DNA of 25,329 nucleotides from a bacterium (GTDB taxonomy: Bacteria; BMS3Abin14), in the NCBI GenBank assembly GCA_020350725.1, contig CP070719.1, forward strand, positions 2,688,749 through 2,714,077, written 5' to 3'. Within the stretch, counting starts at the first letter, position 1. Every line of letters starts with the position of its first letter. The notes beneath the pieces are model-generated. The model searched no databases. It was not told where the DNA came from and worked only from the letters and a program-made list of their open reading frames with translations. The translations under genes were made by a program, and so were the position numbers. Positions 18,902 to 22,281 of this stretch are shown here, piece after piece.

Positions 18902-19507
18902 ATGCCGTACACTGATACACACAGGGTGGTTCACGTTCGACGGTTGACCCGGTATATCCTGGTGGCACTTCTCTGTGCTGCTGTCCTTCTCCTTATGCCG
19001 AAACTATCCCAGGGCATACCCGAACTGTTTGAGGCTATCCGACAGGGCGATTGCGATAGGGTGCGTGCACTTATTGAGATCGAACCAAGGGCGGTCGCTT
19101 CCAGGAGCAGGGGAAGGACAAGCCCCCTACACTGGGCGGTCGAGGAAAGCAATCCCACATTGGTCGAGATGCTTCTCGAGTGCGGAGCCGATGTCAACTG
19201 CCAGGCCTTCGACGGAGCCACTCCGCTGATGGTGGCGGCCGAGGCCGGAGACTGCGAGATGGTCGAGCTTCTCTGCGTCCCGGAACTGGATCTCAACCTG
19301 GCAGACCGCAGGGGCTGGACGGCCCTCCACTTCGCCGTTTCCGCCGGCTGCTGCGACAGCGTGGAACTGCTCCTGGCCAGAGGAGCCGATATCAGTGCCA
19401 GGACCAGGGGCGATGACACCCCGCTTTCCCTTGCTGTCCGAAAGGGACACCGCGATGTCTTCCTGATCCTCGAGGAACACGGTGCCCTGGACCAGATCGG
19501 CCGATAG
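18902..19507 (+). CDS. Exported or membrane-anchored ankyrin-repeat protein
   Basis: A 201-residue protein. A hydrophobic segment at about residues 18-34 after Arg-rich residues is a signal peptide or membrane anchor. Four to five ankyrin repeats follow, beginning near residues 40, 73, 106, 139 and 171, with the usual TPLH/TALHFAV and GAD turns. Ankyrin arrays mediate protein binding; in bacteria, small exported versions occur in the periplasm, some linked to stress resistance. The start ATG has a GGTGAG about 9 bases upstream. It stands alone and divergent from the DUF1295 gene. A specific partner cannot be predicted. Confidence 0.85.
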   Translation: MPYTDTHRVVHVRRLTRYILVALLCAAVLLLMPKLSQGIPELFEAIRQGDCDRVRALIEIEPRAVASRSRGRTSPLHWAVEESNPTLVEMLLECGADVNCQAFDGATPLMVAAEAGDCEMVELLCVPELDLNLADRRGWTALHFAVSAGCCDSVELLLARGADISARTRGDDTPLSLAVRKGHRDVFLILEEHGALDQIGR

Positions 19508-19792
19508 GCCGGGCTGCCGGTCGGCCGGTGGTACCACCGGCTGTCACGCTAGCAGAGCAAGGCAATGCTCCCCATCACCCTGCCTGCCCGGAAACCCCTT
19601 CTCTCCCGATGGAAAATTTACTCCATCCCGTCCCGTTTCCATAAATGATGTGGGCACCATGACGTCTTGTTGACGACATATCAGCAATTCGTCTGTAGTC
19701 GGTGGCCCGGACAGGGCCGGAGTATCCCGGTCCGACAGGGAAAAAGGTATTAAAATATGGGGGTTGGAATGTTTTTCCTTTCCCTCCCGTTC

Positions 19793-19808
19793 TGGCACCG
19801 TCCTTGCT
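19793..19808 (+). promoter_or_regulatory. Sigma54 (-24/-12) promoter 1
   Basis: TGGCAC (19793-19798), five bases, then TTGCT (19804-19808). The GG and GC elements have the exact 10-base spacing of sigma54 promoters, and the site matches the TGGCACG-N4-TTGCW consensus except for one base. The predicted start is near 19819. It points rightward to a strong terminator at 19968-19997. The site and the following 18 bases closely match promoter 2 at 21918. Confidence 0.7.
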
Positions 19809-19818
19809 CCTATCCGGG

Positions 19819-19997
19819 CAAGGAGACAAAAGCGGTATCATCCCCGCCCGGGGTGCATGGTGGGCCATCGGTCGGCATCCGGGCAAGGAGCATTGGGGGA
19901 GAAGAGGGCCTGCCGGAAGGGCCGACCGGTGTGAGGGGCTCAAAGGAGCGGGGATGTTTCCGGAGAAGGGGAAGGCGAGATGCCTTCCCCTCTTTTT
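19819..19997 (+). ncRNA. Candidate sigma54-driven small RNA
   Basis: Between the sigma54 promoter at 19793 and the terminator at 19968-19997 lie about 180 bases with no start codon carrying a good ribosome-binding site. The predicted RNA begins with GGGCAAGGAGA, a leader shared with the transcript predicted from 21944 (GGGCAAAAGGA). GGGCAAGGAGCA occurs again inside the RNA near 19886-19897, and its AGGAGCA could pair with the TGCTCCT just upstream of the predicted start. No known RNA family was recognised. This is inferred from promoter and terminator placement only. Confidence 0.5.
19968..19997 (+). terminator. Strong intrinsic terminator
   Basis: GGGGAAGGC (19968-19976) pairs perfectly with GCCTTCCCC (19982-19990) around a 5-base loop, followed by TCTTTTT. 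This is a textbook Rho-independent terminator in the + direction. It has no protein gene directly upstream other than the ankyrin gene ending at 19507. The stretch 19508-19792 holds no gene; a possible TTGACG at 19670-19675 with TGTAGT at 19694-19699 is too weak to call. Confidence 0.8.
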
Positions 19998-20077
19998 CAC
20001 CTCTGGATCAGCATCTTAGGCCCGGGCCCGGGTTCTGTTCAGTTGGCCGTCCCGTACCGAACCCTCGACCCCGTCCC

Positions 20078-21622
20078 CTAGCTCTTGCTGATGCCCAGCT
20101 TCTTCATTCTGGAACTGAAGGTAGTTCTCTTGACCCCTGCCCGCCGTGATGCGGCCGCGATGTTCCATTTCGTCTTCTCCAGCAGGGACAGGACATACAG
20201 CCTCTCCAGGCTTTCCCAGGAATATTCCGTGATGGGGAAAGGGGCCCCATCGGATTGAGCCCCGAGGGACGGACCTTCGTCCGGGGGAATTGATGGGGTG
20301 TCCTGGACCCGGGTTGCCCCGTCGTAGGGCGGAGGGAGATCGGTGGGCATGACCGTGTTGCCCCGGGTGACGGTCAAAAGGTACTTGACCAGATTCTCCA
20401 TCTCCCGGATGTTCCCCGGCCAGGGATATTGAACCAGCTTCTCCATGGCCTCGGTGCCGATGGTCTTCCGGGGACCGTCCGAACCCTGACCGAAGGTCTC
20501 CATAAAATGGGTCAGGAGCAAGGGGATATCGTCCCTCCTGTCCCGGATGGCCGGGACCTCAAGAGGGAGGACGTTGAGCCTGTAGAAAAGATCCTCCCGG
20601 AATTCCCCGTCGACGACCCTCTCCCTCAGGATCCGGTTGGTGGCCGCAATGATCCGGACATCGACCCTGCGCGCCTCAGCAGTCCCCAGTGGCTTGATCT
20701 CGCTGCTCTGCAGGACCCTCAGGATCTTCGCCTGAAGGCCCAGGGGCATGTCACCGATCTCATCAAGAAAGACTGTGCCTCCGTCCGCGGCCTGGAAAAG
20801 GCCCTCTTTGTCCCTGTCGGCCCCGGTAAACGCCCCCTTCTTGTAGCCGAAAAGCTCGCTTTCCAGGAGAGTGTCGGGTATTGCGCTGCAGTTCTGGGCG
20901 AGGAAAGGGGCCCCCCTCCTGGAACTGAGCCGGTGGATCTCCCTGGCCATGACCTCCTTGCCGGTCCCGCTCTCCCCGGTGATCATGACCGGGAAATCAT
21001 TTGCCGCGTAGGTCTCGACAGTCTTCATCGCGGCAAGGAAGGCCCCGCTCTGCCCTACGATGGCAGCCGGGGACCTGGCTTCCTGGAGCATCCTTCTCAG
21101 TTTGACGTTTTCCCGGTGCTCACTGGCGAAGTCCAGGGAAGTGCTCAGGGCGATTCCCCCTATAGTGACGAGGCCCTCCAGAAGACCCAGGTAGCCGGGA
21201 TCAAGGTTCAACCGGTCCCCACCGGCGCTCGTGTCGATGATCTGAACAGCCCCGTAAACACTTGCGTCACTGAGTTTCAGTGGAAAGCACACGATCAGAG
21301 TGCTCTTCACGTCCAGCGTGTCCTCGATCTGGCTGAGGTGGCGGGGATCCTTGCCCGGTTCGGCGATGGTCATCTTTCCGGTCTCGAATACGGACCCGAC
21401 GACGCTCCGGCTTTTCGTGCTGATTGCCAGTCCTTTGACCTTCCAGGCCTCGGGACCGACCGCCTCCGAGCAAATGTACCTGTCGTCCTCCCTGATCCAA
21501 ATAGACCCCCTTTCCACCTTCTGGATCCGCATCAGTGACTGGAGGAACTGCAGCGGAAACTGATCAGGGTCCAGTTTTTCGAAGAGGGACTGAACGAAGA
21601 TAATGGGCAGTGTCTGGTCCAT
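20078..21622 (-). CDS. Sigma54-dependent transcriptional activator (GAF-AAA-Fis)
   Basis: A 514-residue enhancer-binding protein. A GAF sensor covers about residues 25-165. The AAA+ sigma54-interaction domain has Walker A GESGTGKE at 216-223, the GAFTGA sigma54 contact loop at 263-268 and Walker B VFLDE at 284-288. A C-terminal Fis-type helix-turn-helix (NIAAASRRAGVKRTTFSSRM) ends the protein. All ATPase motifs are intact. The ATG at 21622 was chosen because AGGAAGG precedes it closely; a GTG 24 bases upstream lacks such a site. There is no receiver domain, so activation is probably by a small ligand of the GAF domain. It lies between two sigma54 promoters on the opposite strand, which are its likely targets. 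Confidence 0.93.
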   Translation of the reverse strand: MDQTLPIIFVQSLFEKLDPDQFPLQFLQSLMRIQKVERGSIWIREDDRYICSEAVGPEAWKVKGLAISTKSRSVVGSVFETGKMTIAEPGKDPRHLSQIEDTLDVKSTLIVCFPLKLSDASVYGAVQIIDTSAGGDRLNLDPGYLGLLEGLVTIGGIALSTSLDFASEHRENVKLRRMLQEARSPAAIVGQSGAFLAAMKTVETYAANDFPVMITGESGTGKEVMAREIHRLSSRRGAPFLAQNCSAIPDTLLESELFGYKKGAFTGADRDKEGLFQAADGGTVFLDEIGDMPLGLQAKILRVLQSSEIKPLGTAEARRVDVRIIAATNRILRERVVDGEFREDLFYRLNVLPLEVPAIRDRRDDIPLLLTHFMETFGQGSDGPRKTIGTEAMEKLVQYPWPGNIREMENLVKYLLTVTRGNTVMPTDLPPPYDGATRVQDTPSIPPDEGPSLGAQSDGAPFPITEYSWESLERLYVLSLLEKTKWNIAAASRRAGVKRTTFSSRMKKLGISKS

Positions 21623-21720
21623 GGGCCTTCCTGTAGGGTCCCCCACCGTAGAGAATCACCCACACCTATACCGTCCACGCGGGGGGCACGTTCAGATGGG
21701 GATTTAGAGGACCTCATTTT

Positions 21721-21750
21721 TTTGTAACGCCCGCCCAGCGGAAACGTCAA
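21721..21750 (-). promoter_or_regulatory. Candidate sigma70-type promoter for the sigma54 activator
   Basis: On the minus strand, TTGACG (21750-21745) and TACAAA (21726-21721) are 18 bases apart, about 100 bases upstream of the activator start. Matches are five of six and four of six. The rest of 21751-21900 shows no gene. Confidence 0.35.
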
Positions 21751-21917
21751 GGGATAAATGATCGGGCCAGAAGGCACGATAATCCGCCTGGCAGACGATA
21801 TTTAGTCTTAGTACGCGCCTGTTGGCGAAGGCAAAGGCCGTAGTCCGGAAATGGTCGATCCGAGAAAACAATATTAAATCAATAAGTTATGTCTAATAAG
21901 TGGTATCAGTCCCCTCC

Positions 21918-21933
21918 TGGCATCGGCCTTGCT
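21918..21933 (+). promoter_or_regulatory. Sigma54 (-24/-12) promoter 2
   Basis: TGGCAT (21918-21923), five bases, then TTGCT (21929-21933), with correct GG/GC spacing. The predicted start is near 21944. The block from CTGGCA through GGGCAA aligns without gaps to promoter 1 and differs at only a few positions. It is 57 bases upstream of the RBS of the small gene at 22001 and divergent from the sigma54 activator. GTAGTC occurs upstream of both promoters (19695 and 21840) and is a weak candidate for part of an activator site. Confidence 0.7.
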
Positions 21934-22000
21934 CCTCATCGGGCAAAAGGAACCAGGCGGATAAACGGCATTCGGCCCAGGTGCTTGGGGGAGGTTGGCA

Positions 22001-22183
22001 ATGGAAGAGTCGGTAGCGGGAAGAAATGAGATCGTTATTGGGGAAAGGACACAGAGGGCCAAAAGGAGGTCGGTGATGAAAAGGACAAAGGAGGTCGTGG
22101 CCGCGGGGCTCGAGGTCCTGAGGGAAGTCCGCCACCAGTGGACGGAGGCCGAGCAGAACCTGTCCCGGTGGAAGGCCGAATGA
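22001..22183 (+). CDS. Small protein under sigma54 promoter 2
   Basis: A 60-residue protein from the ATG at 22001, which has GGGGAGG at 21988-21994. An internal in-frame ATG at 22076 has an even better site, AAGGAGG at 22063-22069, and would give 35 residues (MKRTKEVVAAGLEVLREVRH and so on). The 35-residue part looks like one or two amphipathic helices (LEVLREVRHQWTEAEQNLSRW). The upstream 25 residues are basic and less structured. No family is recognised. Position downstream of a sigma54 promoter and next to its likely activator suggests regulated expression. Which start is used, or whether both are, cannot be told. Confidence 0.5.
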   Translation: MEESVAGRNEIVIGERTQRAKRRSVMKRTKEVVAAGLEVLREVRHQWTEAEQNLSRWKAE

Positions 22184-22239: not shown

Positions 22240-22281
22240 ACAGGGCCGGGGAAGGGAAGTGTGTCTTTCCCCGGACCCTGT
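22240..22281 (+). terminator. Strong hairpin between converging genes
   Basis: ACAGGG plus CCGGGGAA (22240-22253) pairs with TTCCCCGG plus CCCTGT (22267-22281), 14 bp with a single bulged A. There is no U-tract on either side, so it may be a non-canonical terminator or an RNA 3'-end stabiliser. It sits 57 bases after the small gene and before the 3' end of the convergent gene at 22334. Confidence 0.45.

Follow-up and report, generated by a model that had tools for sequence, protein, structure and literature searches.

The analysed window, a stretch of 25,329 nucleotides of contig CP070719.1, is probably the home of a small sigma54 regulon, composed of (i) an activator with a GAF domain, (ii) at least three promoters, (iii) small proteins and (iv) a transcript of about 180 nt. 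The promoters, the half-sites upstream of them, the activator domains, the small-protein family and the conservation of these elements together were read directly from the sequences. According to the proposed mechanism, the GAF domain of the activator (20078–21622, minus strand) would sense a signal, and the activator, predicted to bind paired TGACGAYAT half-sites about 105–145 bp upstream of -24/-12 promoters, would then trigger promoter opening by sigma54 polymerase at three targets or more: 19793, 21918 and G000:1381963 (G000 being the genome of the window). From promoters 21918 and G000:1381963, two small proteins that are paralogues of each other and end in R-x-W-x-E-A-E would be produced. 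The output of promoter 19793 would be a transcript of roughly 180 nt ending at a terminator; it most likely represents a paralogous small-protein mRNA whose reading frame was lost, and its role as an RNA could go either way. The features of the locus, including the predicted binding regions, transcription start sites and expressed units, are as follows:

19662–19693, plus strand: predicted binding region (UAS) of the activator at promoter 1, ACGTCTTGTTGACGACATATCAGCAATTCGTC, with half-site GACGACAT at 19672–19679 and inverted TCGTC at 19689–19693.
19793–19808, plus strand: promoter 1, sigma54 type, TGGCAC-N5-TTGCT, TGGCACCGTCCTTGCT; exact match, with a sigma54 gene in the genome.
19819–19997, plus strand: predicted transcript 1, about 180 nt, with no convincing ORF; start placed by the 12-nt spacing.
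19967–19991, plus strand: terminator of transcript 1, an 11-bp stem followed by CTTTTT, from the terminator scan.
20078–21622, minus strand: one-component sigma54 activator with a GAF-type N-terminal domain, an AAA+ domain with GAFTGA and a Fis-type HTH, assigned by domain matches and orthologues.
21784–21807, plus strand: predicted binding region of the activator at promoter 2, comprising half-site GACGATAT at 21794–21801 and a weak second half.
21918–21933, plus strand: promoter 2, sigma54 type, TGGCAT-N5-TTGCT, TGGCATCGGCCTTGCT; exact match.
21944–22000, plus strand: leader of transcript 2, with ribosome-binding site GGGGGAGG at about 21987–21994; start placed by spacing, sequence read directly.
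22001–22183, plus strand: small protein of 60 aa, MEESVAGRNE...GLEVLREVRHQWTEAEQNLSRWKAE, of the R-x-W-x-E-A-E family, assigned by a paralogue, homologues and the codon-position pattern.
22240–22281, plus strand: hairpin 3' of the small ORF, read directly; a possible terminator with a short T run only and no call in the terminator scan.

The two near-identical, exactly spaced sigma54 promoters described in the sequence-only reading were confirmed: promoters 1 and 2 are the sole zero-mismatch matches to the -24/-12 pattern in the window (three other matches carry two mismatches each), and the genome encodes one sigma54 protein (487 aa). The exact pattern occurs at 10 sites in the whole genome versus 2 for the reversed control, and, since the control rate is 2 per genome, two same-strand sites within 2.1 kb are far above chance (probability of about 1e-6 by our own arithmetic). 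The hexamer GGGCAA indeed lies at an equal distance in both promoters, 23 bases past the start of TGG. In the wider form GGnCAA it occurs in the start region of most promoters of the set, yet it cannot be regarded as regulon-specific because the pilA promoters of G001 and G004, and a few others, have it too. In the sigma54 promoters of these pilA-like genes (L195, G004:C8:436; L240, G001:445172), GGGCAATTGG lies in the start region and GTGACG-N6/7-GTCA upstream; the latter might be bound by a PilR-like activator. Directly upstream of promoter 1, an ankyrin-repeat protein is encoded at 18902–19507.

A genome-wide search for the promoter-leader block, proposed in the sequence-only reading, yielded a third near-identical promoter (G000:1381963; one mismatch to the extended pattern), located 1.33 Mb away in the same genome and followed by a small ORF homologous to that behind promoter 2 (G000:1382006–1382224; E 1.9e-10). 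The two ORFs differ at 5, 4 and 10 sites of codon positions 1, 2 and 3, respectively, over 27 codons, and the ORF of the window is therefore considered coding. A profile search of 386 genomes revealed further convincing members of the protein family in G002, G008, G010 and G005, all of the same bacterial family; in their alignment R, W, E, A and E are invariant near the C-terminus, which ends in R-x-W-x-E-A-E. A sigma54-type promoter precedes five of the six small ORFs and was not found ahead of that of G005. The 60-aa protein had no family match in NCBIfam and only sub-threshold, chance-level matches in Pfam, and thus the R-x-W-x-E-A-E proteins constitute a family without description in these two libraries. 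Behind the small ORF of G002 and G008 lies a gene for a protein of 209 aa (L131, 6701–7330) or 214 aa (L281, 4070–4714), each with approximately three repeats of W-x-x-[AS]-D...[YH]H[IL]PKS[RG]; a third, shorter repeat protein of this type is encoded in G008 (L282) beside a run of N.

It is extremely improbable that the promoter-like blocks at 19793 and 21918 are products of chance or a functionless repeat. Short elements of this type do arise by chance about twice per genome, to judge by the reversed control, but such an origin is at odds with the extended identity of the blocks, the third copy ahead of a homologous gene and the conservation in other genera. The third copy, together with similar arrangements in related bacteria, instead suggests a small sigma54 regulon. 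The earlier proposal of a compact regulon of activator, RNA and small protein was thus upheld as to the activator and the small protein, for which the third promoter, the conservation in relatives and the sigma54 gene speak. The regulon would reach beyond the locus, to the target 1.33 Mb away.

The gene placed between the two promoters was also borne out as that of a sigma54 activator with an intact GAFTGA loop. Its product contains the sigma54-interaction domain PF00158 (E 1.7e-68) and an AAA lid, and GAFTGA is intact both in this protein and in all three orthologues. The Fis-type HTH (PF02954) scores 23.6 bits against a cut-off of 22 and is found in 4/4 orthologues. The GAF domain was assigned by orthology, because the window protein searched alone gave no GAF match, while GAF_2 is matched by two of four orthologues (best E 3.5e-9); a single-sequence structure prediction of the N-terminal domain reached a pLDDT of only 36. 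According to the alignment, the best start of the gene is ATG 21622, in place of GTG 21646. Full-length orthologues from the same bacterial family share 62% (G002) and 61% (G006) identity with the activator. A homologue with 49–50% identity was identified in a metagenome-assembled genome (MAG) labelled Desulfotignum, with no sigma54 promoter of the set and no half-sites nearby; in this MAG (L021, 4968–9365), RtcB and FdhD/NarQ genes come after it. The closest NCBIfam model is TIGR01817 (NifA; residues 33–519), and identification of the activator as a NifA equivalog was rejected because its score of 315.5 bits falls far below the curated cut-off of 528.85 bits.

Comparison of the six best promoters (three from the genome of the window and one each from G002, G006 and G008) revealed the half-site GACGAYAT, on either strand, about 105–143 bp upstream of five of them; any word was shared by at most three in 500 shuffles, although the half-site was defined post hoc, by inspecting the same promoters. 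Across 12 genomes, this half-site was found at the appropriate distance from a -24/-12 promoter in only four places, all belonging to the set, versus one place in the control. The word GTAGTC (19695 and 21840), earlier offered as a starting point for the binding site, was not recovered as a shared element and is not common to the related promoters; the word shared by promoters 1 and 2 is GACGAYAT (19672 and 21794). GACGAYAT was absent from the looser promoter of G010.

In its most complete form, the putative binding site is a palindrome, TCGTCA-N3-TGACGA, present in full or nearly so twice, 30 bp apart, in both G002 and G008. The half-site of G008 is embedded in a perfect palindrome, TCGTCACTGTGACGA, of which another copy lies 30 bp further along, and the two copies of G002 have one mismatch each. 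Two palindromes separated by 30 bp are the arrangement expected of this class of activators. Single copies are found in G006 (one mismatch) and at promoter 1 (two mismatches); promoters 2 and 3 possess a good half-site only, the second half of the palindrome being weak. Of the 94 sites in the order that match the sigma54-type pattern exactly, only members of this set gave a palindrome score of at least 10 at -100 to -145; one further score of 10 was recorded at -162, inside an apparent coding sequence.

Within the bacterial family, a matching sigma54 promoter is located near the activator orthologue in G002 and G006, and such a promoter precedes the small-protein gene in G002 and G008, with a looser version in G010. 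The relative order of activator gene and promoter varies: divergent in G006, convergent at a distance of 2.1 kb in G002, and both in the window. A functional link between activator and promoter is favoured, because the association has been kept across three genera despite this changing order. The promoters might nevertheless be driven by another of the activators encoded in the genome, the gene between them being a mere neighbour. In favour of this view, the genome holds 17 matches to the activator family, related activators may have similar half-sites (compare the GTGACG-N6/7-GTCA upstream of pilA in G001 and G004), and G008 has the sites with no activator orthologue detected. We nonetheless consider it improbable, since the orthologue and a half-site promoter adjoin in three genera at varying positions. 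In G008 the promoter, the half-sites and the small protein are all present, and an activator orthologue was not found in the assembly, which is 81% complete.

Two neighbouring genes were read by eye in these relatives. In G002 (L102, 1–1100), the gene upstream of the activator resembles an IS110-type transposase gene and could have replaced the divergent promoter that is present in G006 and in the window. In G006 (L103, 1–1000), a 48-aa ORF comes first behind the divergent promoter, and next a gene resembling those of MalT/LuxR-type ATPase regulators.

The functional RNA of the earlier proposal was not likewise upheld: transcript 1 has no homologue in the other 11 genomes of the order, folds only moderately better than background without its terminator and resembles an eroded copy of the transcript 2 leader. 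Its longest internal ORF has 25 codons' worth of protein (25 aa), and none combines a good ribosome-binding site with likeness to the small-protein family. The order-wide search, which found no homologue in the 11 other genomes, matched transcript 1 itself, the promoter-3 block and one 34-base stretch; the last was taken as a chance match, as it lies inside an ORF whose translation, read by eye, is enoyl-CoA-hydratase-like. Rfam 15 gave no matches in the window at the gathering score. A 14-base word, ATCCGGGCAAGGAG, occurs twice in transcript 1 (19813 and 19878), 65 bases apart, and its first copy spans the predicted start.

Transcript 1 might be a functional, sigma54-driven small regulatory RNA, comparable to Qrr RNAs and acting by base pairing or protein binding, a reading that we hold possible but doubtful. 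The strong terminator, the want of a convincing ORF, the intact promoter and half-site and a best fold z of -3.4 are in agreement with it. Without the terminator, however, the fold z is only -2.25 to -2.5, a value equalled by about 4% of random window stretches, and the missing homologues in the order also weigh against it. Antisense pairing with the leaders of the activator gene and of the other two transcripts did not exceed that of shuffled sequences, and a role as a CsrA sponge was rejected, GGA motifs being not enriched (8 versus a background mean of 5.0, with 18% of stretches reaching 8).

Alternatively, transcript 1 may derive from an eroded small-protein paralogue that has kept its promoter and leader, lost its frame and has no present function, which we rate as a serious candidate, though at somewhat less than an even chance. 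Its promoter and leader resemble those of promoter 2, the alignment of the region past the promoter with the leader and 5' region of transcript 2 beats 300 of 300 shuffles, and the equivalent convergent position in G002 is occupied by a small-protein operon. Against it, the alignment score exceeds the best of the other window stretches tested by a slim margin (47.5 versus a maximum of 45), and transcript 1 has an intact promoter, half-site and terminator, an unusual finding for a relic. Given the likeness of the two transcripts, the lack of homologues and the modest fold, an eroded or repurposed paralogue appears as likely as an independent RNA. A duplicated sigma54-dependent small-protein gene could also have split, under one GAF-domain activator, into R-x-W-x-E-A-E proteins and a regulatory RNA derived from a paralogous mRNA leader, a scenario that we regard as rather unlikely; if the RNA arm is true, the leader of a small-protein gene would, after duplication, have given rise to a regulatory RNA.

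The locus resembles those of the one-component activators of Desulfovibrio vulgaris, of which adjacency to the presumed target sigma54 promoters is the rule (PMC4641369). In strain Hildenborough, six such activator genes are divergent from sigma54 promoters, DVU0569 has a sigma54 promoter downstream of the activator gene, and candidate binding motifs lie upstream of the promoters in question (PMC4641369). The window locus is of the same kind, with its activator beside sigma54 promoters, but differs in that the promoters flank one gene, the small-protein targets belong to a nameless family and one target is distant. With NifA-type activators (TIGR01817), the predicted protein shares the GAF domain, AAA+ domain and Fis HTH; in contrast, it scores under the TIGR01817 cut-off, and no nitrogenase genes were noted at the locus. 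With LuxO/Qrr and other sigma54-driven small RNAs (for example PMC10162802), the common features are a sigma54 promoter beside an activator gene and a short terminated transcript. The putative RNA of the window differs by having no conservation or Rfam match, the small proteins being the conserved output, and the activator by carrying a GAF domain instead of a receiver domain.

The analysis defines a testable putative sigma54 regulon in a sparsely sequenced lineage, provides a candidate binding half-site for its predicted activator and reveals a small-protein family that has no curated library entry and recurs behind sigma54 promoters. Another sigma54-type promoter ahead of a small protein was observed at L260 (G011:C560:3068) and at L267/L164 (G002:C62:4315); the small protein of L260 ends in ...AGEAEFNTQTRSRYR and is followed by a terminator. 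The upstream regions lack GACGAYAT and carry TTGTATACGATC in both genomes, and these loci possibly represent a second sigma54-driven small-protein set in the same bacterial family.
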